Both the position numbers and the translations under genes were made by a program. Of a DNA stretch of 64,000 nucleotides, positions 13,074 to 58,299 are shown in pieces; the first letter of the stretch is position 1; every line of letters begins with the position of its first letter. The notes beneath the pieces were generated by a model. It was not told the origin of the DNA, made no database searches, and was given only the letters and a program-made list of their open reading frames with translations. This DNA comes from Dictyophora rubrovolvata. Taxonomy: Eukaryota; Basidiomycota; Agaricomycetes; Phallales; Phallaceae. Location of the stretch: positions 2,179,102 through 2,243,101 of the forward strand of contig CP114124.1 of NCBI GenBank assembly GCA_029959195.1, given 5' to 3'.

Positions 13074-13123
13074 GTTGATAAGAAGTTTAGAGATTGGTGT
13101 AGTTAGGCTGGAAATGCACTGAC

Positions 13124-35282: not shown

Positions 35283-35330
35283 GTTAATTGGAAGTTTGGA
35301 GATTCGTGTAATTAGGCCGGTGATGCACTG

Positions 35331-35425
35331 ACGCGTTGTTCGACGGTCGTTGGTGATGAGGGGTTTGGGTTGTTGTTGTTGAAAAGATAGCAGGGGGCCC
35401 GTTTATATATCGTCGCGTTATGTGG
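35331..35425 (-). promoter_or_regulatory. conserved promoter of small paralog 2
   Basis: TATATAAA on the minus strand (about 35402-35410) with flanking CGCGACGA and the GTTGTTCGACGGTCG block, as upstream of paralogs 1 and 3. Confidence 0.65.
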
Positions 35426-36198: not shown

Positions 36199-37911
36199 TC
36201 AAATATGAAATCCATCCGCCCAATGCCTCAACACGCCTTCTCCACGCACGTGAAAATCAAACCGTTTGATATCTCTCGAAATTATTGTAGCATGTGAATT
36301 TGCTAATTTGTCAATGAATGCGTAATGCTTCTGAAGTTGAGGTAGTTGATTTAATGAGTCTATGATTTTGTGCTGTAGTGGTGTTAGTTTAGGTTGGTAG
36401 AGTAATTCGGATGGAACAGATCGGAGAGAAGTGTAGGTCGTTGATGAATACGTAGTAGGTATAGAGTCGGTATGCGAAGGGCTTGAACGAGAAACCGGGG
36501 GGGAGTCGGACGAATCGGAGGGGGAAGTAGGAGAACCGGGATCATCAATGATATCAGCGACGACATCATCCAGCTCCTTCTCAATCGACCGGAGTGCTCT
36601 AACAAATGCACCAGCCTTGCTGGGATCACCTTCTTCTAAAAGTCTAATGCGAGCTCTCGAAGCTTTCATGTCCACTGACAGTCGGAATACGGCGAGAGAA
36701 ACAAATAAGGGTATCAATATAGGTATTAATAACGTTACAATCTCATAAATAATCAGAAGAATGAAGCGCCAGAAATGAGGTTAAGACATACCACGTTTCC
36801 CGGAAAACGAAATTGGAGGACCGGTGGAAGGGGTATTTTAGGTATAATTTTCTTGCCGAGGTTACTCATGTATTCTTTCGATCCGAATGGTACGGATGTT
36901 TTTATAGGTACTGTAGATGGGAGGTGAAATGATTTGAGAACAGGTTTATATTTCCCATCGAATTCTCTGTTGCATTATCTCGGTGAGATATTAAGAAGAT
37001 TTAGTACACTGAGGTTCTTACAATTGGATTCCATTTGTCTCATGTAACATGAACGGATCCGAGGTTTCCAACGCGGCCGTGAGGAACGGGACAGTACGAT
37101 CCAGAACCGCGTTGGCATAGAAATGAACGTGAGGGAATAATAATAAAGCCTGATAAAAAATATGATCTATCAACCCGGTTAGCTAGGAACGTATCTCTGT
37201 AGAAACTTTGACGCACTTTTATCGGCCATAACATCTAATAACGGTTTTCCTGTATTGAGCCAATTATCCTTGCCATAAAAATGCTCTCCTGTCCTTGATA
37301 AAAGCTTTGGTCCGAAGTAGGCGAACAGCTTCTCACGCAGGCTTACTGCTCCTGCCGGTAAACCGAGATGCGGTGTAGCGAATGTTGCAAAGTTGACGGG
37401 TTTTACCTTTTGAAAGAATTTCTGGGAGTGCAGAACCCTAAAAAGAAAAAAAAACTCATTGTAAAGGCGTGTCGTCGGTTCGGCTGTTTGGAATTTCAAG
37501 GACATACCCTATCAAGTATCGAGCTAACAATCCGCCAAGGCTGTATCCAACAACAGAAAATCGCACAACTTGTCTACGTCCGCTTTCTTCAATTTTTTCG
37601 ACCATGGTTCGCACCTGCACCATCGCATCAATAATGGTGAATATACTACAGGATGGAGAGGATAGCACCCCTCCCAAACTACTACACCGACGCACCTCCT
37701 GGGCAATCCGCTCACCTCCCCAATCCACGCCATCATAAGTAGATTTCTCCTTATTAGTCTGAGCCACCAAAATCTCGAGAGAAACGCCATTGTGAACATG
37801 ATCCGAAGCGTATTTCTCTCTTATGATACGGAGCATTTCGGCGAGATTTGCAGGGGAACCCCACATCCCATGCACGAGGACTAGGAGGTGGACTTCGTGA
37901 GACAATGACAT
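36199..37911 (-). CDS. putative serine esterase/lipase, DUF676 (ROG1-like)
   Basis: Alpha/beta hydrolase, predicted lipid-droplet or membrane-associated lipase. ATG at 37911: MSLSHEVHLLVLVHGMWGSP (oxyanion region), then an 81-nt in-frame intron, then VVGYSLGGLLARY with the GxSxG nucleophile. Next come FATFATPHLGLP, SRTGEHFYGKDNW and an exon with FYANAVLDRTVPFLTAA carrying the likely acid Asp. The C-terminal part has a membrane segment (IVTLLIPILIPLFVSLAVF), a Ser/Pro linker and the family tail NSHATIISRDIKRF..GEGVLRHWADG. Introns have GT..AG ends; one has a T9CT5AG acceptor. Family members hydrolyse acyl-glycerols or phospholipids. A truncated duplicate is at 58.3-59.0 kb. Confidence 0.85.
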
Positions 37912-38246: not shown

Positions 38247-41200
38247 TTATATAGAACTAGTAATCATCGGAATATCCAAATACACCTCCTCAAATTTGTC
38301 AACCAAGACGGCAGGTGCACTTCCTACGAGCTGATCTGCCCATTTGAAAACTTTGGCCCACTCGATTGCCACCTTTTTGGCAGTTTCAGCAGGCAAAGAC
38401 CAGGCATTCTTGGCACCCTTCCAATCCGTCGCTGTTGGCAGCCATGCTTTCGTTTCAGAGGAAGGGTTTTCGGTCGGAAGCTTTTCATTTTCGATGACTT
38501 CGACAAACATAGCGTCGTGGGCGCTGAAGGGTGGGATATGGTCATCTGGATATTCAGGTCCGGGGGGCATGACACGCATACCCGTCAGCATATTTTTGAT
38601 GGTCGAATTGTTGCCATCGAGCAGGTCGTCTGGTGTGGTTCCCCGGGCTGGGTCATTGACAGGGTCATCTGTAAGACACGATTACTTTAAGTATCAGTGG
38701 CAATTAAGAGTTTGACATCACTTACACTGGCCCCATAGTGCTGAAGGTACGTTCTTTGTCAATGGCAGGAACGCGAACCCTCCAATGGCCTGTTTTGTCT
38801 CTCTGTCAGAAATCGTGAGTTTGAGGACCGACTGGACCGATTCGGTGGCATGCATGGGCTTCAAATAGACGGGAACCTGGCTGGTGTACACATCCTTCCA
38901 AATTGACTCATCATTGTACTTGACGCTGCTGAGAGCGAAGCGGCACTGGATATTAAATCTGAATTGACCGCCAGCGACGATCCAAGGCTGACCAGATTCA
39001 GGACTGACTTGCGCGCCTTTTCCCTGAGCACTCCTAGGCCCCATGACGAGGGTAATACCGGCATCGTGTCCAGTGTTGGGCTGATTAGACGATCGGGATA
39101 ATAGATCCCAAAACTCATCAAGGGACAAAGGAAGCGGAGGACCAGGATGATTGCCAAAGTAGATATCGAATCCGAATAGCCAAAAGTCGACATGAACATT
39201 GCCGCCGAATGGAGGTCCCTCAAGATGGAGCAAGGCAGAGATGTCGGTTTCAATATTGTATGTCCAGAACAAAAACTTGCCATGGAATCCGACACCGACG
39301 GTTACAGCGATATCTCCCGCGAAATGAAATGGGTTCCACATCATGATGAACCAGGCGTGGGCATCCAAGTGGGCTCGGAGTGCACCAGTATGAAACAAAA
39401 CGGAAAGTGATCCTCCACCCATGCAAATTTTCGGCGTGATCGCGAAGAAGGACTGTCCCGTAATACTAATACTGCTGTCGAGCTGCCATGTAATAGTCAA
39501 ACGTTCAGGTCGTGGATAATGAGGTGGAGGCCTGTAAGCAGGATGGTAGCCGCCAACCTTTGGAAAACGAAACGGTGAGGAATGGTTGGAAACACATTTG
39601 GGATGAAACGAACGTACCGTATAAACGAAGTCCCCTGCGTGAGAAGACGGGTCGAACCAATAATAAAGGGCAAATCCTCCAAGTAGATGACAGGAAGGAT
39701 GCAAAACGAACGAGTTGGGAGATAGCTTGCCTTCAACGCTGAAAGTACCATATCGCAAATCCACGGAACACGTTATTCCGAGTTCTACATAAACAAGGCA
39801 TCTTTCACGTGGAGATTTCGGTGGAAGTGAGCAAACTGCATCCGCGAAAAGGCCAAGACTGACGTATGGATCAAGCTCAATGGTGGCGACAGCTCGGACG
39901 TCAAGAGTTTCAAGAGCGAGAACTTCAAATCCGATTGCGAACCAAAGAGACCCGTTCTGGGGCGTGACCCACTTTGTGAAAACGTCATCCGACAGAATTG
40001 TGAGCACATTTGATGAGGAAGAAGCGGCACTGGCAGAGGTACTACTGATTCCTTTGACCAGCGGGAATGTCAGAATCTCGTCTACAGTGGGATATTTCAA
40101 GTGAGAGTTATATCTGCAACGAAGCCTCTATTAGTGACGACTTCGCAAAAAAAATAAAATAGGATAATCATACCCAAATCCGAGTGAAACACCATTAATG
40201 GTCCCAAACTCTAGCTCGACAAGGGGGCCGTGAAGTTGTGCGAAAAGGAAGAACGTTTTGAACTTCTCAGATGGAGTCGTCACCACCCCGTATGAACCAA
40301 GTGCCAAGAAGTTGTACTCGTTCATGCCTACTGCAATACCTCCAGCGAAGAGCTCCATTGTGGGAGTTGACAAGTCCTCGAAGAGACCAGCAAGAAGGAT
40401 AGGCGGTTGATCCAACGCAGCCGCCATACCACGAAGTTGAACAGAGAAATCCGATAAATCAATATTTGAGGATAAAATGGACGCGATATTCACACCTAAA
40501 CCAAATCCTAGTAGATTCAGTCCTATGGGTCCAAGCGCAATCGTAGCATCGAGAACGACAATAATCTTCGAATCCTTGTATTGTAAACCGATGTTCGACA
40601 AAGACAACGGTCCAATAACTTTATGAATGGCAGCCTTGGACATTCCTCCTGCATTACCATCGGAATCCGCCTGAGGTTCGGATTGGGACGTGTTGGCGCT
40701 CTTTGATTCTTTGTTTTTATCGGCGGATTCCTTTTTGGGACCGCCAAAGTTGTAATCAAGAGCGGCCTGCGATGCTAGAAATGAGATAATTTTGAATATA
40801 CAAAATAAAACTTGAACCTACCGTTATCTTGCCGGAATCCTTGACCAGTAACATGAAATGACATCCCTTAGTAAGGACGATATCGTTCTTAGCTGCGGCA
40901 CTAGAGGCCTTAGTCTCCTTGAAGAGAATTCCAGTTTGTTGTACAAAGACGATACTGTTGATTTCTTCAACTTCAACTCTTGTTAACCCGGCGGCCTTGC
41001 TTTTGTCATGTACCCAGACGAATTCAAGACCATCAATAGGACTATCAAGTTGACCAATCACGGGTATGGTGAAAGAAGGAAGAAAATCAGCCAAAGAGAA
41101 TATAAGGAGACGCTTTGTCGTCCGTTTGGGGGAAACATCGGCAGGATTGGCAGAATACTGGCTGTTGATCTGTACGAAGCTGAGCTGGATCTTGCCGAGT

Positions 41201-44200
41201 TTAAGTCGAAAAAGGAATACGAGTGGAGAGTCCTTGGAAGAACTTTTGGAACAATTCAAGTATACTGGAGAGTCTTGTGGTACTTCGGGCGATGCGGGGT
41301 CGTGTTGTACATTGAGCTTGACGTCCCCAATAAAGTCTGGAATGTCGAAGTCTGCTGAGTCACCACCACAAATTGATCGGATCACGTCAGCTACTGTACA
41401 GTCTCCCGCAGCGCTTAAGCCTGCTTCGATACTCCAGCCGTTGCTGTCGCGATTGTAGGCAAAGTCAAGTGCCAGTGTTGCAATCTCAACACACCCGTCA
41501 AAATGGAATTTGGTTGGCTCGCCTTTGCCTCCATACTCGCAGTTTACGACAAGCGAGCTTATGGTCACATTTCCCAGGACATCGGCCACTGGGCTCTGCT
41601 CGTCTGCGGTGAAGAATATGAGCAAGTTTCCGAAGTTGATATTTACCAAGGTTCCGGTCAGCGTCCACTTCTCATCCATATATTCCACCGAGGCATAGAG
41701 AAAACCAGGATGGTCCATTGACTCGGGATCCTCGGATGTACTCCCAACAGCCGGAGGGTGGAGGCTAATAACGGCAGCAATCCACAGAGAGGGTGTTTTC
41801 GTATCCCAGTTGTATGATAGGTTTATACGCAAACTGTCAAACGAGATCGAAGGGATTGCACCACCTCGAGGTGGAGGGATTGCGTCCATTGCACCTTCAA
41901 GGGAGAAGGAATACCTATCAACTTCAATTACAGCGCTCGATATAAGAACAGGAACTCCATGGGGTGGTGTGCTGATAGTGACGCCAGGAATGAGATCCAA
42001 AAGAGAGAGGTTCGACGCAATCTTCGACGAGTCGACTGTGGGCTTGACCTCAAGTAGTGGCTCGTAAGATGGCATCAACTTCTTCCAGCTGTCATCCGAA
42101 GTACCCGGTACGTACAGACTCCCTTTGAAAATGATGTCGGGCCACAAAAAGCTGAGCATCACCACAACATCTTTTGTTTCAGATGAAGCTTTGCCGATCT
42201 TGAATTTCAACTGTGCGTCGATGTTGATCTTGCTTAGGCTGAGCGTCGAGCCCCCGTTACTGCGATCGATCTCAACAAGGACTCGTAATATGTCGAAAGT
42301 GCTGCTGATCTTGTCAAGCACCTCTCTAAACACGTCACCGGCAGTGCCGGACCCACTAATGTTGTAGAGGATTTTAATAGCAGCATCGAGGGCGCCATCA
42401 TCCCAGCATATCGCCAGCATGTATGCATTCTTTCCGCATACAACTATCGTTGAAAACGGGAGGTGATCGGGGGCATAGGATAGAATAAACTCTTGCTCAT
42501 GGATATCGTTCCTGGGAGATTTCAGGAACACTGTCTTCGTTGTCTTTTTTGCGACGACCGTGACTTCCGCTCGACCTATTTCGTCATCCCACAAGCCTAG
42601 ATCACCAAGGCAGTCCAGGAAAAGAAATATATCTGGCGCGTTATGCCGATCGAGTATTGCCTTAGCTTGGAGACGGAGCGCGGAAGTATAATTCCCTAAT
42701 AAGGGGGAGAACCACGCAGCACTACTCTTGTCAAGTTGAACATCGATATCGGACTCGAATGGGATGTCATCAATGCCGAAGTCGAAAAGCTTGCAAATGT
42801 CGCTGAGGGAAGAATTTAGCGAGGAGTCGGCTATATCAAATCGTAGAAAATCGGTGCTTGGTTCGAATTTGGGATCGTTCGAGGGGCCGACCTTGCGCGC
42901 CGGGCTGAACGTCAGATCCGATATTGAGGCGGTGATACTGAAGCAATCGATGGTAAGCACCTCCTCCGTCACAGATCCTGTCGCAGAAATCTGGACTTGT
43001 GAACCCTCCGATGCAGATGAGAGAGCTGAGGCAAGCCACACTTGCCATTCATCACCCGAGTGTAAATCAATTGTCTTGGTCGTTGTCCCGAGCTCATCCA
43101 CGAGCGTTATAAAACCATAAGACAGAGTTGATACGAAAAGGTCCCATGCATCTGGGACGTAAACCCCGCGGTTGGAGCTTGGAGGATCGACGATGGATGA
43201 CATGAGGAAGAATTTTTTATCAGTGTCATCATTTACGGTAAACTCGGAGGGATTCACAATAGTGGGGGCAAGAGGGCTCGGGGTAGGGGGGCTCGGGGTA
43301 GGGGGCCTAATAATCGGGTCAGGTTTGCTCTTTTTGGCGGGTGTAGGACCAGTAAGAGGATCGGGCGTCGTAGAAGTTCGGGGAAATGAAACGGGGACGG
43401 CCTCTTTGACGCCTATGGAATTCACATCCACGGTATCCGTGTCGTCGTCCGACTTGATTTGGATGGACGATACACTTGGATTGATTACACTTTCATCCTT
43501 GGATGTCGAAGGGAGAGACGCGTATTTGCTACGATTGATGTAACAGGTCTTCGCGAGTATAATCTCCTCAACATGCTTTCGAATCCAGTTTTCCCTGGCC
43601 GCTGTGTCCTTTGATGGCATATCGTCCTTGTCAAACTTGTCAACAAGGTTCAAGTCGACAGTAGATGTGTCAAAAAAATTATTGATTGTGTCTCGGTATG
43701 CCCTCGCCCGTTCAGTCGTTTTAGTGAGTGGGTCTTGCTCATTGAAAAGCCTTTCATGGGTATCCTTTATCCAGTATGGAAAGGAGGTCGTGTAGATGTT
43801 ATATAGACCACCATCCTTAGGTTCAGTCCAATTTCCTTTCGGTGATATATAATAGGAGTAGACATAAAGCAAAACCTCCCAAGCTGAAAGCATTTAGCAG
43901 GCGTGTCAATCAACCAAGACAGGTTCAGCTTACTTGGATGGCGATGCTTAGTCCCGGAGGATAATATGAAGAACTTTGGCTTGTACGTTTGACAAAGTGT
44001 GATGGGAGTGGATGTGGCGGAACCATGGTGGCTCGCCTTCACAATAGCGACTCTGTCCGTAGTCGTAGCCGGGTCAAGACCCGTCCAATCGATGACTTTA
44101 AACTCGAGATCCTGATGCGCATCTCCAGCAAAATAATGAGACGCTTTGCCATCTTTCCGGATGATCATACAGATGATAGAACTTCGATTGGTGACTGTAC

Positions 44201-45016
44201 CATCGCCTTTAAGATCGTCGCTAGTCTTCGAACCCTTCAGGAATCGATTGTTGGCGGCGACACAATATAATCCGGGCATTTTCGCGTTATGAGCATCGAC
44301 GAGCGCTTTTGGATTACTCGCCAATACCACCTCGGAGAGGGGAGGTTGGTGACTGGTGAAGAGATCTCGACCAATGAGTTCAGATGTATCACTTGCGTTT
44401 AATTCCTTTGGGCTTTCCTTCAATATGGTATCAACTCTTTTAGGCATATCCGCAATATACCTGCAGATGCGTAGTCGTCTTTTTTTGTCGGTAAATCCGT
44501 ACTCCTCGGTTCCCTTAATGGGCTCCCATGCACTGTGAGACTCCGGATACGGAATGTAGAGAATTGATTGCGGGTCTCCTGTCCCACTGTATTTCAAGAA
44601 AGACACTTGAAGTGGCGAGGTCGGTTTACTAGTAGGGTCCTTCTCCCGCTCTTCTTTCTCCCGCTCTTCCAAATCATCCTTGAGGAGCTTAATTACACCA
44701 TAGTAATGATCATGGTCCCAATGGGAGATCACCATCGCGTCAAGCTTGAATTGACCTTTACCCAGGAAATAATCCTCTTCTATCCTCTTTATGACTCGCC
44801 GAATATTATTTATACGAACACCACCGCCATTGCCACCATCGATCAAAACGGAATACTTGATCGTGGGGTACTTCCTGTCTTCTTCCTCGACGAGAAGAAT
44901 GAATGCGCAATCCCCGATATTGATGTTCACCTAGGTAGTAGGTAATTTCAGATTTCTGTGCATTTATGCAGGCTAACCCTCACCTGTCTGTAGTCGATAA
45001 TGTACTTGGGGGCCAT
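38247..45016 (-). CDS. giant metallo-beta-lactamase/DUF6603-like fusion (~2,144 aa)
   Basis: Exons 45016-44984, 44930-43934, 43883-40822, 40766-40174, 40113-39618, 39557-38726, 38668-38247; the 60-nt intron at 39617 is in frame and its removal gives GDFVYTVGGYHPAY. N-terminus: MBL fold of ComEC type, with SHWDHDH at residues ~80-86, AGD ~280 and KASHHGS ~309-315. A Pro-rich linker (PPTPSPPTPSP) leads to ~1,000 residues of beta-rich sequence. From ~1400 to ~1900 the pattern is DUF6603-like: GPLSLSNIGLQY, GTINGVSLGFGYN, LLGGFALYYWF, HAGDFVYT, GGYHPAYRPPPHYP. No signal peptide. The MBL part may be a metal-dependent hydrolase. The function of DUF6603 is unknown to me. Divergent from the 1,109-aa gene. 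Confidence 0.8.
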
Positions 45017-45773
45017 CCTGAAATTTGGAGCCCAAGATCAGCTCTGTAGATGGGGGTTAATGTTGGAAAGTTTCCGAACCTTTTCCTTTTCCTGGATCAC
45101 GCGTCTATGACGAAGGGGAAACAATTTTCATTAGGGTGATCTGACATGATCAGTCTTCTTTCCAACAGTTCCATTCCAGAGTGGCGAATGTACTCGAAGG
45201 AATTGGAGTGAGAATGCTCCGGTACATCTAGTGAACCATGACTCGGAGAACTACTTGTGCCTTGGCAAAGCTTCGAGAAGATTGGCAACTTGTGCCTTGG
45301 CAAAGATTCGAGAAGACTGGCAACTTGTGCCTTGGCAAAACTTCGGGAAGGTAGGCGGCTGCGTAAAAGTAGCTTGGACTGACAGACCGTGTGTTCAATC
45401 GCACCATAAACGATAGCCAGATTACGGCCTGTACATTGAAACTTTCGCACGAGCATCCCTGATTCACGTCCTATGATATTGCCTCTGAAGTCTATTACTC
45501 ACGCAAGCTTCGTGAACTGTCTCGGGGAACTAACTCCACATTTGCTACGGAAAATAGAAATTTGCCAACAAACTGATTAATATCTAGTGATCTATCGCCC
45601 CAAGCTACGTACATCCATACTGGACCTCAGCTCAGACTTGTCTTTGGTATAGCTCGTCGACGGCTTTCAGAGTATATCCATACACGGTTATATCATAGTA
45701 CGTTCATTTCAACACTCAAAAATTCTTTTCTTAGGATACTTCTAGTTCATTTCACAACGTTCAGCCTAACGGG
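45017..45773. promoter_or_regulatory. divergent promoter of cassette pair 1
   Basis: 757 bp between the start codons of the MBL-DUF6603 gene (minus) and the 1,109-aa gene (plus). It contains a three-copy 35-bp tandem array centred on a palindrome. Both genes presumably share control. Confidence 0.7.
45258..45337. repeat. three palindromic sites TGCCTTGGCA at 35-bp period
   Basis: TGCCTTGGCA occurs at 45258, 45293 and 45328, exactly 35 bp apart, each followed by AAA and TTCG. The third copy extends to GTGCCTTGGCAAAACTTCG, identical over 19 nt to a site in the other divergent promoter (52037-52055). The inverted repeat TGCC..GGCA suggests a dimeric regulator. Confidence 0.85.
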
Positions 45774-48700
45774 ATGGATTCTACCTCCATAGATTCGCTC
45801 CTCAACTCGGTGCGACACCGTGTTCTTCGCAATGCATTGGCAAATTTGCAAGCCAAGACCGCTCCCACCTCAGATTTATCACCTTTAAAACCGGGGGAAA
45901 TGCAGTTGTACTCGTATTTCACGCCTGGAATTTCAACGGGCCATTACGACATTGTTGCGGAGCAAACAATTTTGACTTCCGATAGCCAGTCCAAAACTAT
46001 CACGGCTCCCGCTCAGTCATTTATTGTCGATGCACCCAAATTCTCTATTGATCCTGCCCTAATTCATTCGACCTTCCCACTTCAAGGTGTGGCCACCCAA
46101 GCGAACGTCCTGCCTCATGTCGTACTCAACGATCCTCATTTGCCGTGGCAGACCAAGATCGGGAAGACGTCCGAACAGGATACATTACGGATCCCCTGGC
46201 TGGCGGTAGTTGTCTTCGAGCAATCGGAATTAAAGCTGCAGCCCGACGACCCTCTCTTCCCTTCTAGTTTACAAGGCGATACGAACCCGCCGCAGTCATT
46301 TACCATGACCACTCGCTTAACTATCGATCAACTCATTCGCAATGGTTTCCAGTGTGCACTTCCCGATTATGGAGATGAAATACTGTCAGATATCTCCAAA
46401 TCCGTTGATGTTATTTTTCCTAACATGGACCTCTTTCTCGCTTTATTTGGGAGCAAAGCGGATGATACACCGGTCGTTAATTTGGATCGCTTCAAATACT
46501 TGGCTCACGCGCGTAACGTCAATACTACACACATGACAGACTCTGCAGTTCTCGATGGAGGGCAGTTCAGTATTGTCTTCTCTCATCGTACGGGCCCTCC
46601 ATTTGAAAAGAGCGCTTCACCTCAACCCAAGCGCTGTGTTGCACACCTTGTTTCCCTCGACTGGGTCCATCATATTCCAGCGTCAGATCTCAAATCGACA
46701 CGTGCTGCGTTGCTCTCGCTGTTCAGTTGGACATACGACTGCATCCCGCCAGAGACGATTAACTTTGAAGGTGTTATGAAGGCGGTCGGACAGAACAGCG
46801 GGATGTATCGAACTCCGGACGAGATTCGCAACAATATTAGCATGAATCTGCCTCCAGATATTCGCAATCGGGTCAAGGATCGACTGAATGACGGATACAC
46901 ACTTTTGCGCTATCGAGTTCAGACAGGCGAAGAAACTGTCGCGCTTATGCGTGGCCCTCTCACACCTTATCAAGTTCCTGAAGCGTCCTGGATGGATATT
47001 CACTCAAATACCGGAGAGGATCTCCAGATAATCGATACGGAACTGGGGTTGATGGATATCTCGTATTGTGCTGCTTGGCAGCTGGGAAAATCACTTGCTA
47101 TTGCCGATCAAGCTTTTTGCGCTGCCCTCATCAGGATCAGGGCCAATGTATACGACGCCGCAAGCGAAAAGACAAAGGAGGATGTTTTGGCCAAGAAATT
47201 TGAGGCCGCCACCTCGGGGAGAGTCATCAGCTCGCTACCCCAGCACTTTCTCAATATGAAGCAACTGTCCAAAGAATCCCCAGACGCCCTGAGATGGAAT
47301 CGCCCATCCCTCATTCAAAGTCGTTACAAGCTTCTAGCCGAAGAGAAGAACTCTGATGCTTATAATAAATCTGAAGAACATCACTTGCGCCGTCAAGTTG
47401 AACTCATTGCGTCAGCTACTGATGGAACTCACCATACCGAAGTCAAAGATCCCCAGTCCAACGATTGGGATCTTGTTCTCAACTGGATTTTAGACAAAAT
47501 CTATCTGGAGAAGGTTCCTCCTTGGTATCTCATTCCTGATCCCACGTGGCTCCCTGCAGAATCCATTCGCTTCTTTCACGTCGACCATAAGTGGTTGAGC
47601 GCTCTGGTCGACGGGGCTCTCAGTGTTGCCAACCACCTCGATGCTCAGGATAAAGTCCGACAAGTCATTAAAGATCAACTACTGAAATATTTGAACGAAG
47701 ACCTCCACCATGACCTGAAACATCCGCCTCAAGTTCCGTCCTATGGGTTCTATCTGCGCTCCGTGGTAGTCGATGCTTTCCCCGACCTGGTTGTTCGAGC
47801 CCGTTGGCCCACTTCCAGCAGTGGTCAACCAGATTTAAGAGCAGAAATCCTCAGGCAGGAGAATTTCCGGAAGGATATCATGTTCTGTCTCCTTGACAGG
47901 ACTCCTAAGGATCTTCAGGAACTAATTCTTAGTCAGCCGCCACATCAGCAATGCTTTATGTTTGGTCACGACTCGACCTTCACTACCGATGGATTTGATT
48001 TGGAGCTGAGAAAGGTTTACTCGGTCCGTACTACCGAGCACATGGACGAGTTACCTAAGAAGTCGTTCTTGAAGGACTCGAACGGGCTTTGTGACATTTA
48101 CGACTGGAATACGCGTACTATACGAGTTGACGGGTTTATCAATTTCGTATCTAATACCCTTAACAAAGAGCACTTAAAGGATTCAAAGGTATACAATGGA
48201 GAAGTCAACGCCTCTCTCGTAGGGATTGAGCTTAACGATCCCATTTATCGTCTCACGTTCACCTCAACTCAAACTTCCTCTTCCACTATAGACCGGGCTT
48301 CAGATAGACACTCAGTCATATTTGGATTCCCCACTGACCCTGCGGCTGCGGATGCGCCGCCATTGCCTGTGAAAAACTATGCTCGCCCATTCAAGGGTGT
48401 CCCTCGCGTTCGTAATAAGATCCCCTTGTACGGCCAACCTCGGAGATCGAGACTCCCATTACCCTCACTCTCAACCTCTCGCACAGCAGATCCGTCCACA
48501 GTCACTGTCTCACAACTTTCAACGGCATCTGAAATTCCCTCCATTCTCTCAGAGTTTGACTATGAGGGCCTAGAGAAGTGTTCTTCTCGCTTTTCACCCA
48601 CCTGTTTCACTCTCGGTTATCCTTTTCTAGCAGCCCTGGCCGAAGATGCTGAGATGACATACCTCTTCTCATCGCCAAACGGGTCCGACATTATTGTTAG

Positions 48701-49103
48701 GCTTGCTCGAAATGAGGCTGATCCCAGTTCAACCGACTACATCCACATTTTCGAGATACGTGTACCGCTTGGACATGATCGAGACTCTCTGTTCACCAAA
48801 CCGCTGGATATGGATGCCGTGCAGATGCTCAACACGATGCGGTTCATGACGAGTGTTGGGATATGCGGGAATGATGATGAGAAGGAAGTTATAATTCATC
48901 TCACACCCAAAGCCGTGTTAGAAGACTCAGAACGGTCGCCTCTCTCACATAACCCAGATATGTCATTCATCATCAAAGGGGCCGAGATCAATCCGAGGGC
49001 TTTTGATTCGACGATATCAATTGTGGAGTTATATAAGAGCGAGGGGGGAAATACAAAGGTAGCCCTCAACTATATCCATCACATTCAAACAAACGAAGTG
49101 TAG
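45774..49103 (+). CDS. intronless giant cassette protein (1,109 aa), bacterial-like
   Basis: One uninterrupted ORF of 3.3 kb in a region where other genes have many introns. It starts MDSTSIDSLLNSVRHRVLRN. Blocks: VLPHVVLNDPHLPWQ then IPWLAVVVFEQSEL near 120-165, LAHARNVNT near 240, HLVSLDWVHHIP near 290, GYTLLRYRVQTGEETVALMR near 375, MDISYCAAWQLGKSLAIADQ near 425. I associate this block order (PH-VLN-LPW, W-A-VF, Y-RTGE-T-RGPL, -YAAAWQLGR-) with large uncharacterised proteins in bacterial gene clusters. No signal peptide, membrane segment or known catalytic motif is seen. It shares a promoter with the MBL-DUF6603 gene. Confidence 0.85.
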   Translation: MDSTSIDSLLNSVRHRVLRNALANLQAKTAPTSDLSPLKPGEMQLYSYFTPGISTGHYDIVAEQTILTSDSQSKTITAPAQSFIVDAPKFSIDPALIHSTFPLQGVATQANVLPHVVLNDPHLPWQTKIGKTSEQDTLRIPWLAVVVFEQSELKLQPDDPLFPSSLQGDTNPPQSFTMTTRLTIDQLIRNGFQCALPDYGDEILSDISKSVDVIFPNMDLFLALFGSKADDTPVVNLDRFKYLAHARNVNTTHMTDSAVLDGGQFSIVFSHRTGPPFEKSASPQPKRCVAHLVSLDWVHHIPASDLKSTRAALLSLFSWTYDCIPPETINFEGVMKAVGQNSGMYRTPDEIRNNISMNLPPDIRNRVKDRLNDGYTLLRYRVQTGEETVALMRGPLTPYQVPEASWMDIHSNTGEDLQIIDTELGLMDISYCAAWQLGKSLAIADQAFCAALIRIRANVYDAASEKTKEDVLAKKFEAATSGRVISSLPQHFLNMKQLSKESPDALRWNRPSLIQSRYKLLAEEKNSDAYNKSEEHHLRRQVELIASATDGTHHTEVKDPQSNDWDLVLNWILDKIYLEKVPPWYLIPDPTWLPAESIRFFHVDHKWLSALVDGALSVANHLDAQDKVRQVIKDQLLKYLNEDLHHDLKHPPQVPSYGFYLRSVVVDAFPDLVVRARWPTSSSGQPDLRAEILRQENFRKDIMFCLLDRTPKDLQELILSQPPHQQCFMFGHDSTFTTDGFDLELRKVYSVRTTEHMDELPKKSFLKDSNGLCDIYDWNTRTIRVDGFINFVSNTLNKEHLKDSKVYNGEVNASLVGIELNDPIYRLTFTSTQTSSSTIDRASDRHSVIFGFPTDPAAADAPPLPVKNYARPFKGVPRVRNKIPLYGQPRRSRLPLPSLSTSRTADPSTVTVSQLSTASEIPSILSEFDYEGLEKCSSRFSPTCFTLGYPFLAALAEDAEMTYLFSSPNGSDIIVRLARNEADPSSTDYIHIFEIRVPLGHDRDSLFTKPLDMDAVQMLNTMRFMTSVGICGNDDEKEVIIHLTPKAVLEDSERSPLSHNPDMSFIIKGAEINPRAFDSTISIVELYKSEGGNTKVALNYIHHIQTNEV

Positions 49104-50131
49104 CATGAGGATTCAGTTTTCTCAATGTAATAGTAGTAGTAAAATCAGATATCATGTGTTGGCAGCCTCCCCCGAAGTCAGACGGTGTACGATGCGTATC
49201 AGAGTAAACAAAAAACACATGAATAACAATGATCATCTTTCCAAATATTTGGGGTATGGCGAGTCCTTCGGAGAGGCGCTACAGCCATGAGGTGGAAGTA
49301 GGAAGGTGCATAATTGTCCAGCCGGATAATATAGCTTGTGAAATTTGTTGAGTGTTAGATCTTCGTAAATTCGAAGTTGAGAGAAACAGAGTAGCATACA
49401 AGACAAGACGTGTTTTTATATGTTTTAATGTTTGATATGGGGAGGGGGATTTGACGAGTCATAATGAGTCATATGTAACTGAGACGGGAAAAAGAGTCAG
49501 TAAAAGAAATATGATCTGGGAAAGGTGATTCGGTCAGTTGTGTGTCGCAGATGAGTCGTTTGCGAGGTATGTTTCGGGTAAGTCGACCCTTACTGTGGAG
49601 CTTTTGTTTTGAAGCTAGAAAGGTTCAGAGGGGAGACTGAGCAATTCACGTAGGTTGAATAGGTAGGAGCGACGAGTGTATAACCGTTTCGTTCCTCTGA
49701 GCGTACTTAAATCTAGAGCAGACAGGAGTTTTGGACCGTTGAATACGGCGCTGCGGCGGGGGATTCTCAGGCTCAAATGTGTTTTTGTCAAATTCTTCTT
49801 ATTTTTTCTCAAGCCAAGTTCAACCGCTATGTTGAAGTGTTACATACTATATTGTACAAATTGTTTCATCGCTAACAATTTAAGATGTAGGGACAAGTTT
49901 CCACATCTGCAAGGCTTCACCTTGCGTCATATTGTCGATAGCAAACTAGGAAAAATAAAGTGTTTCTGAGTGAAATTATGGAGTGCGACGATTACTATAA
50001 GGCTTACAACAGTGTTCTTGTCATCATCAACTTTGGTACGATTACTGACCACCTTGTGTGGGCGTCCAAGTTCAGGACGGCAGATGCTACATTAGTCATT
50101 AGTCATCAGTTCGTAGTTCAACAGTCTCGAC
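49104..50131. other. intergenic, no supported gene
   Basis: Convergent spacer between the 1,109-aa gene and the lectin-like gene; it should hold both 3' ends. Short ORFs only. Confidence 0.4.
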
Positions 50132-51799
50132 TTACAAGTACCCGGGGTCGTCTGTGTTCTTTTCCAGCAGCACAAACTCAGTTCCAGTGCTATTCATTCC
50201 GAGATACCCTCCACGATCAGCAACGAGTGCTGTAGTAGTAGTACTAACACCAGAAACAGTAGTAGTGGTTGTAAAAGTGAGTTTGAAGTGGGGGGAATCT
50301 TTGTCGATATATTTCAATTCAAACTGATACAATCAAATTAAACTTCGAAAAAAAAATGAATAAACCAGCTAAGCGCATACCTTAGAAGCATCAGAAGAAA
50401 CCTTAGTAGCATCGGTGATAGTTTTTGGGGTAATACGCAAAGGAGAGGTGTAAGCCTTCATGTAGACTAATTGATCATGGACACATTGTAAGTGATACTT
50501 TCCCTCAGTAACTTCGCGTTTGGCATGGATTTTTTCTTTCCCCAAAGCAATGTATTTCTCAATGAACCAGATCTGGCTTGATGTAGCCTTGAAGAGGTTT
50601 CAGCCCCTTTTTGTAGGAATTTGGACGACAGACTTACATCACTAGACACAAGACTAACCTATTTACGGTATATCAGGAAAGAATGGTAACATTCTATTTG
50701 GAAAAAAACCCACTTCATCGTTGTCCTCGATATCATAGTCGGCAACACCGATTGACAGCTCGGTCGATGGAACACGCAGACTAAAAATTTGTAGTGGTGT
50801 GAAAAAAACCGGAATTTGAAGTTTACCCAACCACGTTGTACTTACGACCAGGCGAAGCCTCCAACACTTTGAAGATCCCATTTGAAGGCAGTTGACAATC
50901 CAGCTAAACCATCACCTGCAACGGCACTGGTAGTGCCACAGCCAAGATATGTGTTGGTACTAGCGTTTTGAATCGTGTAATTGCCGGAAGACTGCGAGGT
51001 TACGGTCCACTAAACAAACCAGTCATGAGTTCGATACGATTAGCTTCAGCAAAAAAAGCGTACACGCTGGTAAGCGACTTGATCGGCTTCTTCAAACTGG
51101 GATCCAACATATACGCCAGTGTCCCCAACAGATTTTTGGCTAGGCATCGTGAGGAGGTTTTTGCCGTTGAGATTCCGAATACGGTAGGCTCCTGATTTCA
51201 CTTCATGGTTGTTGACCGGTTGTACGGTCACAGGTATTAACTGCCACTTCGCTGAGTTTGGGTTCTGTTTGAGAGAATTTTAATCAGCGATAATTCGAGT
51301 TACTCAGAAGTAGACATACATCGGTCGGCAGTGACGATGGGAGAGAGACTGATGAGTCCACGTTGGCAGTGGGATAGTACGAATAATAGATAAGGAGTCT
51401 ATGTGTGTTTAACAATGTCATTAAATAATGACTCTTGAGACTTTGCGTACCGATATACATTGTCAGACTGATGCGAGAGAGACACGTATGCGTAAGAATT
51501 GACAGTTTTACTACCAGCAGTTAGACCGCTTGAAGAGTAATATAAGCATCGGTCCGTGCTTTCGACGTTTTTAACGTAGTAGTAAGTACTACCGGTTGAT
51601 ATTTGTTCGAATTGCCACTAGTTTCGAGTCAAAGAGGTTTACAACAACATGCGATATTACAAACGTATTGGCTATTAATCTCTTTCAACGGTCGCAACTT
51701 GACAATCGTCGCCGAAGATGAAGGATTCACAAGTTCAAGGCACGTCAAAAGATCCACGCTTTGAATACGATACTTGACACCAGCAATAGGAGTAGTCAT
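50132..51799 (-). CDS. beta-trefoil (ricin-B type) lectin-like protein, multi-exon
   Basis: ATG at 51799 (MTTPIAGVKYRIQSVDLLTC). Exon 1 ends 51665; a 47-nt intron; exon 2 is 51617-51451 with WQFEQISTG and YYYVKNVES. Later exons give AKWQLIPVTVQPVNNHEVKS, YRIRNLNGKNLLTMP, NYTIQNASTNTYLGCG, and a C-terminal domain (KYHLQCVHDQLVYMKA, GYLGMNSTGTEFVLLEKN). Repeated YRI(Q/R)..L and W-Q/T cores separated by ~45 residues fit ricin-B/trefoil repeats. Such fungal proteins usually bind glycans and lack a signal peptide, as here. Divergent from the 1,343-aa gene with shared palindromic sites. The exact exon set in 50335-51340 was only partly resolved. Confidence 0.68.
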
Positions 51800-52037
51800 T
51801 TGGATGTCTAGTGAGGGTACTGGGGGTACTCTGAAGGTGAAGTCGACAACAGCACAGTGGGCGGAACTTTGAAAACGTAGACGTGGATTAAATATGCTGT
51901 AATCGCAGGCCGATTTTAGTTCTAGTCAGACCTGTTGACGAGGAATGTCTCGTTCCTAGTTCCTAGCCAAGTTAAGACCAGGCATTGTTGGAGAGTGGGA
52001 GTCATTTCCTTTGAAAGGGCGAGAACTTGAGAAGGTG

Positions 52038-52079
52038 TGCCTTGGCAAAACTTCGAAAGGGTCGCTTTGTGCCATGGCA
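52038..52079. promoter_or_regulatory. two palindromic sites of the cassette motif
   Basis: TGCCTTGGCA at 52038-52047 and the perfect palindrome TGCCATGGCA at 52070-52079, 32 bp apart, in the divergent region between the lectin-like gene and the 1,343-aa gene. The first lies 239 bp from the minus-strand ATG, against 242 bp in pair 1. Confidence 0.8.
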
Positions 52080-52650
52080 ATTCAATTCTTCATTCTTTAC
52101 ACACGATCCATCATACACTGATCATAAACAGGTTGTGCAGTGCTCCTGCGGGAATTTCCTTTGGGATCGTTGTGGCCCGGCACTCCATAACAGGAAATAC
52201 GCTGAGAGAAGTATGATAGTGTTGCCCGTAAGGAAATACCGGCGAGCACTGGTGTTGACAGCTGTCAACTGATAGTCTGACTTCGTGTGAGAATGAAAAC
52301 CAAGTGTAACGCGTGACGCGTTCGCGCAGACTGTCCAAGTGTCATTCCTTTACGTCGTTCCATCAAAAAAAAAAAGTTTTTTTTTCGCTGCTTCCAGATT
52401 GTGGTTGGCATGAGGTGTGCTGCGTGGATGATGTATCAGCCAAACTTAGCCAAGTCTAGAGTAGAAACAGTGGAGTTGATAAGGTAGCTCAGCTGATGTG
52501 GATGACCTTCGTCGCAGCTCACACCACGTCCATCCAACAAACCTTGTGGTCTACGCCGTCAAGCTCTCTGCAATCATAACGCACCGACGTACGTCTTATC
52601 ATGTATTCGTTGTTTTATTTCTGACATTTGTTGCTGTTTTTTCAAGCACA

Positions 52651-55600
52651 ATGGGGGAGTTTCAACCAAACGTTTGCATTCCAATGAAGGTAGAAGCTTT
52701 TCGGTTGAATGCAGCTTCAGCCGATGGACCTTCTCGATTAGCTCCCATATCCCAGCCAGATTTCACTCGACTTCGCCTCAACAAAAGACTTAGACACGAT
52801 GTACTGGGGGATGTCGACCTACAGAACACAGCCCGTGGACCAGAGTTTAGCAATAGGGTCACGAACCTTGCCACTGGCGAGTTAAGAAGGGAACGGTTTG
52901 GGATGTATCTGCATTGGATTTTACCCCGTTTCTATCGGACTGGGATCGCAGCGACCGAGTCTTCAGCTGACGAGCTTAAAGATTTGAGGAGCAAGCACGG
53001 TCATCCAGAACCGGACCTGAGTGAAGGAGAGCTCGACCCTCACTCCCCCATTTACCGTCCACTGCCACCCCGCTGGATTATCTTGCGCCATCTTACATCC
53101 AAAACTCCATCCAATGCTGATATCCCTACGTTCCAGGCATTTGTACTCGAATCTGATCGTCTTTCAAAGATAGGTGATCTTGATTCTCACGTTGACATCG
53201 AGGTCGATGTATCCCCGTCTGTCTACATGAAAGGCGAGTACGGATCTCTCGCCAAACAAGCAGAGATATACATTGGTCACAAACAACATTTGGACGACTG
53301 GCAGGAGGCAGGCGCCGACTCATCTATTGTTCGAGTTCCCCTCTCCATTCTCGGCAATATCAACCCAGTGTTTTCCGATTATCAACCCCATAATACAAAC
53401 GTCTTCTCCATTCTCGACAATTTCTCTTACGAAGATAACGGAACCAAATATCTGGAGAAAGCGACTGCTAACTATTACGTTATCGGTTGGCATCCCTATC
53501 ACAAAGAAGATCCCTTTTTCCCTCCTCAGCAAAGCCCTTATCCAACGCACGCAGAGAGGCTGAAGGGTTGCTATATGCAGCTGGTGGAGACCCAGTCAGG
53601 CGAAGTGGCTGACTGGCTCAAGGCCCCGCTCACCGTCGATGATCCGACGAAAGTATTGATTCATGGCGCTCTTTACCAAGTCGAATGGGATGTGCAGGAA
53701 AAACCACTCATTGTTCCTGCGGATGACATTGCCAAGGATTATAACGACTTTTCACCTGTGTCAGTGGGCGTCAATCCCGTTGACGCACTCCTTGCGGTCA
53801 CTCATGCCCATGCTCTCACCTATGATGCGAACCACAATAATTCAAAGCCGTCCCCACTCGCACAAGATATCCTATCCTTACAAACCCTCGTCATCGAACA
53901 GGAGGAGGACCCTGATACTCAGTTGCAGGCCGCCGATATCTTGTTTACGTCATACTTTGTTCCTGCAGATGGTGGACGGCATTGGCAGGTTGCTGGTGCG
54001 GCCACGAGCGATGGTCTAATAAACACCGTACCAGACCGTCAGGAGCGAGATGATCTGAGCAAAGTCAACAGGCAACAGAGGGCAGTCGATCTATGTCTAC
54101 GTGAAATGCAATGGATGAAGTGGCAAATTTGGGCCGAGTGGTGGAAATGGGTTCGGACGAACGAGGCGCACACGACAGAAGAAGGGCTTGCCGTGCAAGC
54201 CAAAGTCGATGAAATGGTCCGTCGTCACGACCGGCTAATTACGAATGTCGTCAGCCTGAGTGATATGGTCAATAACACAGTCAGGAAATATAACTGGGAG
54301 ACGTCTACCCTGCCCAGGTTTTATACCTGCAGGGACCCAACGGTCTTACTTTGCGGGATCAAGAGTGGCTGGCCCACCGATTGGAGCAACCTTTTGAAAG
54401 TTCGATTGGACAACCATATTATAAAAATGAACGACATTTTCCGCACACCACCGGAGGGATGGGCCGATTTCCAAAACTTTGCTGCGTCTGTGTCTGCGAA
54501 GCTGCCAGTAGGGTTGCAAAAAACGTCTCGGCTCTTGCTGGAGGAGTTTTTCGTTTTGCAGCCATTTGCCTCAGACAACCCCCTTCTTCGCCAACCTCCG
54601 CCCACTGATCTATTTTTCCCACTGTACCATGATCTAGACAGTAGCGAGAACGGAGAGGTGTGGAGGGACAGATGGAATAACAAGCAGCCTTGGTTTCCTT
54701 TGTTCGTTGAATGGGAAATCGAATACTATCATATCGATCACGACTCATGGGTTCTCGCATCTCGCGGTCCATATGGTCCGCCCAAGCTGTGTCTTGAAAT
54801 CAAAGATGACGCAGACATTAGCCAAATCACCAATTCTCGCCCCATCAACGGACGATCCTTGGTATTGCCGCAAAGTAATACGATGCTCAAGAACACGGTC
54901 GAAAAGCTCCTCAAGAACAAGAATAGCTCGCAGGATGTTGATACTTTGAAGGTTGACATTGACAAGCTTGGCTTGTTGACGCTAACGTTGTCAAGTATTT
55001 CAGGACAATTGGCTACAAAACACCAAAGTAGGTAATTCCCACTATCCCAATGTTCTCCTAGTAACTTTGACCTAGACACGCATGTGAAGCCTACAACGCA
55101 CGTCCCAGGTTATGGCTCCCACCCCCTTCAAGAGGCGGTTGATGCTAGTCGGGGTGCAATTGATGAGGATGCAATTCGGCTCATGTACGATACGACTATG
55201 ACGCCATATGGAGATTCCCCCAACTTCCAAAACAAAAAATACTCTCCTTTCAAACCCGTCGTCCATGGACAGTTTAGATTCACAAAATTGAACGTGATTG
55301 ACAAGTTTGGCCAGGCGGTTTCTGCACTCAACCCTGATCGAGGGTCCGAGCCAAGTCTGCACCCATACGTCAGTGAATTTTATTCTTGTACCAAGGACAG
55401 TTCGTCTGGATCGCCAGTACCTCGTACCGTTATCACTGACTCGGCTCAGTGCGCTCAGCTGGAGCCACGAATCAATCAGGAGAGCCGATTAAACGGGCAT
55501 TATGTCCTTTGGAGCGATGATGATAAGTGTTGGCGACCTGTGACTGAATATGAAAACCCGGTGTGGGGGTGGCTCGTCGTCAACTACGCCGACAACGGCC

Positions 55601-56730
55601 TCCAAGTTTTCTTGCCTGACGGTTCATTTTATCGAGAGATCAGGCTCGGAGGATCAAGTGGCACTTCTGACACCGCATGGTTACCTTTCAAGCCTCCATC
55701 GGGAAGTGACGAGGTAGTTCCTAAACAGCTCCGTGCGCTAGTGCAAAAACTTCGGAAGCGGGAGTATCTTCAAGAGTTTTTTGATGTCATGGTAGGAGCC
55801 TTGGATGCAACGATGTTTACACCCAACCAGTACGCTGGTTACCTGCCCGCAATCACTGGGAAGCCGTTCGCTTTAGTCAACTCCGGCTGGTCTCTCCAGC
55901 TCTCACATCCACCAGATGTTAACCATTCGACTAGTATCTCCCCATCCGCTATCTCAGAATCATCCATCTACTCGTATGATTTTCAAATCAAATTCGGCGA
56001 TAAGGATCGAACCTTTGACGGTCTTCTTGGTTACTTCAGAGAGAACATAGTGGAACCCGACCGAGAGGACTCGCCAATAAATTTCGATCTGAATAACTTT
56101 TATACTTATTTTCCCAGCATTGGAAACGATGACAGTATGACAATCATCATTGAAGAAGACAACTATCCCATGTTCCAAGCGTTTTATAATGACCCCCTGA
56201 AAGTCATCAACGGAGAAGTCACCTTCAAGTCCCCAGAGGAAATCGATCTGGATTACAATCAAGGGCTTACAACGTTTGGGATGCTTGTAGATCCCTTCAC
56301 GCCCATTCATGCTTACGCAGGTTTCCTGCCTGTTACAACGCTTCATCTTCCAGGTTGGGCAATAGAGCAAGGGTTAAAGAATATTACGGCCTTCTTCCAC
56401 TTGGGGCCCATGATCATGCCAAACGACGTCCCGTCTTATGATACCAACCGCGTTCTTACTTCGGGCTCCAACCTCAAAGACTCGGACAAATTCAAATATC
56501 CTCCAGGAACACCTAAGTTTTCCATTCCCGCTATTGGAGTCGCTGACTGGGTATGGCTGCAGCCATATGCTGTTTCCCCCGTTTCCACCGATGGCATCAG
56601 TTTCAATCCTTTCCAGCTAACGGCCGTGCCTAATGAACCTAAATACGAGCGTACACCGTATACAGCCGTGGAGGGTTACCTCTATCTCAAAGAACCAATC
56701 ACTAATCCGAGTACGACTGTTAGTAAATAG
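52651..56730 (+). CDS. giant cassette protein (1,343 aa), bacterial-like
   Basis: join(52651-55027, 55076-56730) with one 48-nt intron (GTAGGT..CCTAG); exactly 1,344 codons. ATG at 52651 (MGEFQPNVCIP) is chosen because it is the first ATG after a likely 5'-UTR intron (GTACGT..TTCAAG, 52589-52646). Blocks: LHWILPRFY near 90, PLPPRWIILRHL near 130, NYYVIGWHPYHKEDPF near 280, VLIHGALYQVEWD near 345, a Trp-rich helix (MQWMKWQIWAEWWKW) near 500, ITGKPFALVNSGWSLQL near 1055, GDKDRTFDGLLGYF near 1110, and DPFTPIHAYAGFLPV near 1190. These resemble large uncharacterised bacterial proteins of the type PPVPNRW.VVR, VVGWYADP, LVHGTV..V.WD. No signal peptide. Function unknown; partner of the lectin-like gene. 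Confidence 0.82.
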
Positions 56731-57126
56731 CTGCGACTGTGTTATGACTTCACTTTTTATTGATGATAAATGACCGAGGACCTGGGCTGCCGGGAGTCTG
56801 GATCCAGAAAGAAATGACTGAGGTAATGGTTGAGGTACTAGCGTAAAACAAATATTCCCAAAGGTGTACTTTTATATTGAATTTGGATATAAGGAAGAAA
56901 AAGAACACGGCGATAGGTATGTCATATATAAGTTGATTTCCAGGTCAACGTTTTCCTAGTAGATTTGATCGGAAAGACAATGATGAACACACAATCACTG
57001 ATCTTCCCCGACTCTCTGACGTCTATAAATACAATGACTATTATTGGCTCCAGTGGGTCGATGGTGGATATACGGAAATTTGTAAATAGGAGGTGCTTTG
57101 TTATTATGACAATTTACACGGGTAAA
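56731..57126. other. convergent spacer, no gene
   Basis: Holds the 3' ends of the 1,343-aa gene and small paralog 3. No other feature seen. Confidence 0.4.
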
Positions 57127-57551
57127 TCACATGAGAACTGTTTCGAACTTGTAGTTCGTGATACCTAAAGCTCAATGAGTGAATACATCAAGTAATCAAC
57201 AGTCGGCAGCATACCGTTTTCGTCCAAAATGAATTTGACAATATTGTCCTTAAAACACTTTTGAAATTGCTGCATACGCGCATCCAAATCTGGATTATAC
57301 GGTGCACATTGCGTGACAAACATGAGTCTGGAGTTTTCCCCTGGACCTGGAACCTCCTTCATGTCGATGGAATTACACTTCAAAACGGTGTATGGACTGA
57401 TGTACTTTTCTGTGTAGGCGAGTGGATGTAGTCTTAAGTCGGCTATGAAACTTTCTACGCGATCCGCCCATTCGCCTGCAGCCTGCATGCTGATAGTATA
57501 CCCAGCCATACACTGGTATTGTGGGGGTTCGGCCCAGTCCGCGAGAGACAT
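57127..57551 (-). CDS. orphan two-exon small protein, paralog 3 (124 aa)
   Basis: join(57551-57215, 57164-57127), a 50-nt intron. The most diverged copy: MSLADWAEPPQYQCMAGYTI, RLMFVTQCAPYN, FQKCFKDNIVKFILDENG; exon 2 gives GITNYKFETVLM. It shares GYTIS, the MFVTQ core, F-KC and the second exon with paralogs 1 and 2. No domain recognised. It belongs to the decayed duplicate of the 34.9-38.1 kb block. Confidence 0.7.
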
Positions 57552-57596
57552 GTTGATAGGAAGTCGGGAGGTTCTTGTAATTAGGCTGGTGAATGC

Positions 57597-57690
57597 ACTG
57601 ACGCGTTGTTCGACGGTCGTCGGTGATGAAGGGTTTTGAGTTGTTGCAAACAGGGCAGGGGGACCCGTTTATATATCATCGCGTTATGTG
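57597..57690 (-). promoter_or_regulatory. conserved promoter of small paralog 3
   Basis: TATATAAA on the minus strand (about 57668-57676) with the GTTGTTCGACGGTCG block near 57605, as for paralogs 1 and 2, although the coding parts have diverged much more. Confidence 0.65.
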
Positions 57691-58299
57691 AATTTGGCGC
57701 TATCTCTGGACTTGACAGTCGCAATCTGGTCAAAGTTTATTGGACGAATATGACCAAAGTGGTGTTAGGTCGCAGTTGGACACAGGGCCCAAATGACGTT
57801 GAGTCCCAGTTGGACAATGATTAAGAAGGCATCACACTGTCGTTCGTGAAGTGATCGTAATATATAGTCCTTTCTGCAATCCAATTTAAATTCAACTTGA
57901 TGGACGTATGTATTTAGTTGTCGTGCAATAAAGGTCAATATGAATCTTGGTTGAATTTAAGTCGCTAACAGACTTCTATTGGACGTATGAGTGCTAGACT
58001 GATATCAACGAAGGAATAACGCACCGGTATAATTGACAAACTGATGATAAACGTAGCGGGACCGTTTGATAAATTGGTCGAGATGTAGGCGAGGAGGTCA
58101 CTCAATCCTTCTCTTGAAAAGACTTCAAAAGTGGCAATAAATTGGCACCGAAATTTCCCAGACATCGCAAAAGGTCTTGAAAATTGGAATGGGCAGGGGA
58201 CGAACTTTGACTTGACTTTCCCGTCCATGTTCTTCATCGATCCTGAGTCCAAGTAATCGTTGCAAACAAGAGCCTGGGAAACAATAAATATATCATCGC
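57691..58299. repeat. duplicated flank shared with 13.2 and 35.4 kb
   Basis: Blocks such as GACCAAAGTGG, GGGCCCAAATGACGT, TCGCAAAAGGTCTTGA and the GGGGACGAACTTTGACTTGA region align with 13260-13580 and 35460-35850. Confidence 0.6.

Follow-up and report, generated by a model that had tools for sequence, protein, structure and literature searches.

A conserved bacterial gene set with spliced reading frames beside a ricin-type lectin gene in the fungus Dictyophora rubrovolvata

The present analysis deals with a four-gene cluster in the genome of the basidiomycete Dictyophora rubrovolvata (NCBI GenBank assembly GCA_029959195.1; 28.24 Mb in 11 contigs), which is the only fungal genome used in the searches and trees. 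The window, i.e. the whole stretch of DNA that was analyzed, comprises 64,000 nucleotides of contig CP114124.1 (positions 2,179,102 to 2,243,101 of the forward strand), and all coordinates are counted from its first letter. The cluster is located at 38247-56730, all within 18.5 kb, and is composed of two divergent gene pairs: a gene for a metallo-beta-lactamase-fold (MBL) domain fused to DUF6603 is paired with the gene of protein A, and a lectin gene is paired with the gene of protein B. The gene models bear out this layout and these coordinates, which had been given in an earlier note made from the letters of the DNA. A conserved bacterial gene set is present, with intact reading frames and spliced, in a fungus.

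The MBL-DUF6603 gene (38247..45016, minus strand; ATG at 45016, stop at 38247) was modelled with the exons 45016-44984, 44930-43934, 43883-40822, 40766-40174, 40113-38726 and 38668-38247, separated by five introns of 50-60 nucleotides (nt) which are all of the GT-AG type. The spliced model encodes 2,164 amino acids (aa) and replaces the length of 2,144 aa in the earlier note. The MBL domain covers aa 1 to about 400 (43714..45016, minus strand) and shows similarity to LmuA, Avs1a and ComEC profiles, and the DUF6603 domain (38952..40628, minus strand) is matched by PF20248 and by a bacterial profile. Bacterial homology is continuous in frame across the joints of introns 2-5, and intron 1, near the start codon, is without such support. 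The protein A gene (45774..49103, plus strand; 1,109 aa) has no intron, and its part from 45900 to 48065 (aa 43-764) matches the bacterial A family. The protein B gene (52651..56730, plus strand; 1,343 aa) consists of exons 52651-55027 and 55076-56730 with a single intron of 48 nt, which is crossed in frame by bacterial homology, the matches spanning the exon joint. The intron counts of both genes are those of the earlier note. The lectin gene (about 50132..51799, minus strand) is interrupted by seven introns over about 1.7 kb and encodes about 403 aa, or 398 with an alternative acceptor; its product matches RicinB_lectin_2 in three stretches (E=2.6e-15, 57.3 bits) and has ricin-type beta-trefoil repeats. 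The window has nine open reading frames (ORFs) of 250 aa or more; six of them lie in the cluster, each with at least 387 aa, and the three outside reach 349 aa at most, so that such long frames are exceptional in this stretch. A single place in this genome was found for A, for B (searched with exon 1) and for DUF6603 (by PF20248).

The giant proteins had been called bacterial-looking, and profiles built from bacterial sequences only agree with this, matching fungal A at E=4.9e-101, fungal B at E=8.3e-101 (aa 136-1329) and fungal DUF6603 at E=1.6e-150. Three exon matches of MBL-DUF6603 exceed the curated PF20248 cut-off (27 bits), one exon ORF scoring 327.6 bits (E=1.6e-97) and another 115.2 bits, and these profile scores place the third giant clearly in DUF6603. 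No other component of the core has a family name, and to this one Pfam assigns no function; no mention of PF20248 or DUF6603 was found in the literature searched, a scope that left subscription papers and preprints aside, and broader searches showed nothing on the system among the papers listed. By tblastn, fungal A found eight bacterial plasmid records of Streptomyces, Embleya and Paenibacillus (best E=7e-42), and exon 1 of fungal B found two of these eight, adjoining A. An independent proteobacterial B query returned exactly the same eight records as fungal A. Among 35 A and 30 B members no consistent Pfam match was found, only weak matches of single members, the best being Phage_lysis (0.0034) in one B; fungal A and B had no match in NCBIfam.

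The earlier note had proposed, as a check, to look for bacterial genomes in which homologs of the three giants stand side by side, and such neighbourhoods were found repeatedly. Contigs of 84,980 species were scanned with three actinobacterial A queries and two peptide patterns, a search which is biased to Actinomycetota, and 260 pattern matches gave 51 loci, two genomes having two loci each. Together with six plasmid loci from the eight plasmid records, 57 A-loci were obtained. DUF6603 was present in 54 of them, B in 52 and a further family, D, in 43; DUF6603, A and B were all present in 51 of the 57, and in 48 they were arranged on one strand as DUF6603-A-B, in most cases with D genes coming next. 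The median profile-to-profile gaps within this order are 128 and 65.5 bp. In the annotated neighbourhoods Streptomyces sp. NBC_01276 and Paenibacillus polymyxa have the three genes one directly after another in this order, and A and B are adjacent in P. sonchi. B is located upstream in three loci (L047, L052 and L059). Six loci lack a core member in the DNA examined (L003, L014, L015, L043, L049 and L053): no scored B candidate passed in the genomes of L014, L015 and L043, and the genomes of L049 and L053 do have B, which in L049 lies about 12 kb upstream of A.

The set spans five phyla, Actinomycetota, Bacillota, Pseudomonadota, Cyanobacteriota and Acidobacteriota, with the DUF6603-A-B order in four of them. 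Profile A matched 4 of 291 Cyanobacteriota, 9 of 398 Pseudomonadota, 3 of 247 Acidobacteriota and 7 of 396 Actinomycetota genomes, three of the last seven weakly (E from 6e-7 to 2e-4). The set is thus sparse, at 1.2-2.3% of the sampled genomes in these four phyla; the counts include the centre genome, the phyla are named after the locus of the centre, and the figures are lower bounds because scoring was limited to the few best candidates of each genome. The 20 regions taken from these genomes, among which L118 is the same place as L049, all contain DUF6603; A was detected in 19 of them, B in 15, D in 5 and MBL in 4. A second subtype, with DUF6603 of about 2,700 aa or more and with A split in two genes, was seen in L056, L060, L126, L128-L131 and L134, several of which have frames truncated where the DNA ends. 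Separately, three loci (L135-L137) contain a distant actinobacterial variant with DUF6603 and, close to the detection limit, A, and in L136 and L137 a further giant (2,101 and 1,620 aa) without Pfam match comes next. On one Streptomyces plasmid (L007, 6936-11992) CHAT-domain and CATRA conflict-system proteins are annotated about 5-10 kb upstream of DUF6603-A-B.

The MBL domain of the fungal fusion matched the PADLOC profiles of LmuA (E=1.9e-22), RT-associated MBL (1.2e-16) and Avs1a (1.3e-13), and NCBIfam Avs1a at E=1.9e-19 with 69.7 bits, below the cut-off of 420. Its alignment shows HxDHDH, GDA and HHGS, which we take to be the metal-site motifs of the domain. Immediately upstream of DUF6603, a separate MBL gene was detected at 8 of the 76 distinct bacterial loci (L006, L008, L036, L058, L049/L118, L123, L124 and L133), a count which is a minimum because the MBL profile rests on six sequences. 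Among the ORFs of the fetched loci it was these upstream genes that gave the best matches to the fungal domain (L118/L049 at 7e-7, L123 at 5e-6), the order of hits being a ranking within this set because the database holds only these neighbourhoods. One Microcystis genome has two separate sets, L118 with MBL upstream of DUF6603 and L119 with no MBL detected. For aa 400-1363 of the fungal fusion protein, homology with the extended N-terminal regions of bacterial DUF6603 proteins was rejected: blastp gave no match to those regions, and one short, weak profile match was seen at aa 1111-1201 (independent E-value 5.7e-5 in a search of three sequences).

Structures of A and B were predicted for a representative locus, L010. 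The A model has a mean predicted local distance difference test score (pLDDT) of 85.8 and a predicted template modelling score (pTM) of 0.78, and the B model has 84.6 and 0.84. Neither model had a PDB match by Foldseek at E<=0.001, and the B model had none in BFVD at the same threshold. The A, B and DUF6603 profiles found no PDB sequence at E<=1, and the D profile found one fn3 domain at E=0.79. A and B therefore have predicted folds without a solved counterpart, "new" being meant against PDB by Foldseek only, and without a fold match their function cannot be read from the folds. By hydropathy, 33 of 35 proteins contained no 19-residue stretch above 1.8 on the Kyte-Doolittle scale, the two exceptions both being DUF6603 proteins; the lectin contained none, i.e. 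no signal-like hydrophobic stretch by this crude test.

The two divergent promoters of the fungal cluster have a sequence element in common. Between MBL-DUF6603 and A, 2.8 tandem copies (35 bp) of TGTGCCTTGGCAAANNTTCG are located at 45253..45350 (plus strand), and between the lectin and B an exact copy of the same element at 52036 is followed by a variant at 52068 (52036..52081, plus strand). The copies are 35 bp apart in the former promoter and 32 bp in the latter, the first ones stand at distances of 240 and 237 nt upstream from the modelled ATGs of MBL-DUF6603 and the lectin, and the 20-mer TGTGCCTTGGCAAAACTTCG is common to both promoters. The 17-base element GTGCCTTGGCAAANNTTCG has four exact copies in the whole 28.24-Mb genome, all in these two promoters, and its reversed-pattern control has none; as the element was picked by eye in the promoters, its presence there is by construction and the counts test its absence elsewhere only. 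When up to two mismatches were allowed, 11 further genomic sites were found (one with a single mismatch) versus 6 for the control, which is near background, and within the window 5 matches were found against a shuffle mean of 0.65, with none of 100 shuffles reaching 5. Of 3,003 pairs of 800-bp windows, nine share a 20-mer or longer; the promoter pair is one of them and the other eight are in duplicated stretches of the window. The restriction of the element to the two divergent promoters ties the lectin to the cluster. It is also possible that a small piece of promoter was copied between the sites without regulatory meaning. A joint function of the four fungal genes, proposed in the earlier note and now given separate support by the element, is considered quite probable.

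The D proteins of the bacterial loci have about 250 N-terminal residues in common and differ in their C-termini. Sixty of the 62 D matches, two short pieces being excluded, were scanned against Pfam: F5/8C and bactofilin were found in two members each and PLAT, Collar, Gp10_C and others in one each, the phage domains Collar and Gp10_C in the same protein, and the N-terminal part gave no consistent match. In Microcystis the gene next after B, which the D profile does not match, has LamG, and an S74 (endosialidase) chaperone is present in a D protein from the second Microcystis cluster. The gene next after B is sortilin-like in one Acidobacteriota locus, and at three other second-subtype loci large genes without Pfam match stand in this position. 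In the fungus the gene adjoining B is the lectin, which may stand there in place of D. A D domain was also sought at the C-terminus of fungal A (about aa 965-1090), where a D pattern had been seen by eye, and was not established: hmmsearch was not significant and hhalign gave nothing, and the mean alignment score exceeded all 60 shuffles but came near that of one control among three negative ones and stayed well under the scores of true D proteins. The resemblance is retained as no more than a lead.

The origin of the fungal set was studied by trees of the three proteins. In the 71-row tree the fungus attaches between two bacterial sides with an end branch of 2.04 changes per column; one side holds Pseudomonadota, Cyanobacteriota, two Acidobacteriota (L060 and L131) and one actinobacterium (L134), and the other the remaining Actinomycetota, one Acidobacteriota (L039) and two Paenibacillus. 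With a mixture model on 41 rows, the branches flanking the fungus have 96 and 99% support by the Shimodaira-Hasegawa-like approximate likelihood ratio test (SH-aLRT). Bacteria on both sides of the fungal branch fit a bacterial source, which the tree does not prove because it is unrooted and the branch so long. Nesting of the fungal copies in bacterial trees, a check proposed in the earlier note, is shown in part, the branch standing between bacterial clades; dropping Paenibacillus, single-gene trees and the mixture model, as long-branch checks, do not settle the donor. We regard a bacterial origin as very probable, and the direction of transfer, from bacteria to the fungus, as likely.

The whole is best explained, at about even chances, as a captured bacterial operon for a soluble binding-tip complex that is used in offence or defence. 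The bacterial set consists of an MBL gene in some loci, DUF6603, A, B and one to three D genes, with apparently cytosolic products. DUF6603, A and B may form the body of a soluble complex, as their constant co-linearity suggests, and the D proteins may be its exchangeable binding tips or fibres, with a conserved N-terminal domain joined to variable C-termini; this role is proposed because of the domains in a minority of them. In the fungus the operon would have been split into two divergent pairs, with MBL fused to DUF6603 and introns gained, and the ricin-type lectin, which shares the otherwise unique promoter element, would have come to stand beside B, the position of D in bacteria. A binding-tip complex is in our judgement an even proposition. 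That an undescribed bacterial machine was moved as a set into a fungus, where its tip was swapped for a lectin under the same private promoter switch and a modular weapon or receptor complex works in a eukaryote, is put at slightly below even. An anti-predator or anti-competitor role is the least certain step and is offered tentatively: the stored complex would meet its glycan target once the cell is damaged or eaten, like fungal cytoplasmic lectins. This role is preferred because fungal lectins without signal sequence are stored in the cytoplasm (PMC6272156, PMC3355094, PMC13324453); such lectins are reported to be cytoplasmic, to have no signal sequence and to act against predators (PMC6272156, PMC3355094).

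Several points weigh against this explanation. The promoter element was chosen by eye before it was counted. MBL went undetected in most bacterial loci, with a profile of six sequences; most D C-termini have no Pfam match, each family being found in one or two of 60 members, and no D is detectable in the fungus, where the lectin gene adjoins B instead. The branch leading to the fungus is very long, at 2.0-2.5 changes per column in the joint trees, and the join of the fungus with Paenibacillus has 52% SH-aLRT support in the 41-row tree and is flagged as long branches meeting. Composition gives no evidence of transfer because the coding GC of the three giants (0.48-0.49) is close to that of the lectin (0.45).

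The same long branch would suit an old eukaryotic inheritance, or a transfer from fungi to bacteria, since the root of an unrooted tree could lie on it. We consider this improbable in view of the spread of the set over five bacterial phyla with the DUF6603-A-B order in four, the well-supported bacterial clades on both sides of the fungal attachment, the absence of DUF6603 from all 14 control genomes and the lack of any intron over the 3.3 kb of A. An intracellular immune system of the Lamassu or AVAST sort, in which MBL is the effector and the giants sense invading elements, is held to be equally improbable. The matches of the MBL domain to LmuA, RT-associated MBL and Avs1a would agree with it, and so would the sparse bacterial occurrence, in part on plasmids; however, MBL was detected upstream of DUF6603 in just 8 of 76 loci, and the adhesin or tail-fibre domains of some D proteins together with the fungal lectin fit outward recognition better. 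An SMC-like protein or a STAND NTPase is the defining partner of Lamassu or AVAST type 1, and the PADLOC scan of A, B and DUF6603 from the fungus and from L010 found no PADLOC family in any of them, and hence none of these partners. The fungal MBL is like LmuA, Avs1a and ComEC/Rec2 in its MBL-fold profile and motifs, but it scores far below the NCBIfam equivalog cut-offs and is fused to DUF6603.

It could also be that the set builds or decorates a structure of its producer, such as a spore, fruiting body, sheath or cell surface, with D and the lectin as adhesins that bind the producer itself or its partners. Two points speak for it: spores, colonies or fruiting bodies are known from many of the carriers (Streptomyces, Paenibacillus, cyanobacteria, fungi), and adhesion-type domains occur in some D proteins. 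On the other hand, the sparse occurrence in each phylum is more in line with an accessory trait used in conflict than with one used in development, and 33 of 35 proteins lack a signal-like or membrane stretch, so that this idea is judged unlikely, though less so than the two before it. That the set is what is left of a phage tail or of a contractile injection device would be consistent with the D protein having Collar and Gp10_C, with the one having the S74 chaperone, and with baseplate-like genes annotated about 9-14 kb from the operon on one Paenibacillus plasmid. Single D proteins are indeed like phage tail-fibre or spike proteins in these domains; unlike them, A and B of L010 had no relative in 50,697 phage records, the patterns used found no A or B relatives in IMG/VR, and the B model had no match in BFVD or PDB. 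A phage or viral origin was rejected on these grounds, and a remnant of such a device is very improbable.

The lectin of the cluster can further be compared with the cytoplasmic defence lectins of mushrooms (CCL2, PMC3355094; CCTX2, PMC13324453; review, PMC6272156). It is like them in being a ricin-type beta-trefoil without signal-like hydrophobic stretch. It differs from them in being tied, by promoter element and position, to three giants of bacterial kinship; CCTX2 is described as one chimeric protein (PMC13324453).

The data define a bacterial operon of five phyla, made of families without consistent Pfam model and including two predicted folds without PDB match, and they offer a testable idea, namely a soluble complex with swapped binding tips and, in the fungus, a lectin. 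To our knowledge it is unusual for a multi-gene bacterial system to be transferred to a eukaryote and kept together, intact and re-regulated.

In the surroundings of the cluster, diverged duplicates with about 75-84% DNA identity flank it on both sides (34751-37675 and 57122-58756). The duplicated segment comprises part of a DUF676 esterase gene together with a small gene (about 125 aa), and a third copy of the small gene is located near 12.7-13.1 kb (12569-13579), so the cassette may be set inside an old array of duplicates. Further diverged duplicated stretches, of 81-85% identity, are present in the left part of the window (3763-11959), and an ORF at 1808-2842 resembles a piece of a Copia-type retroelement.

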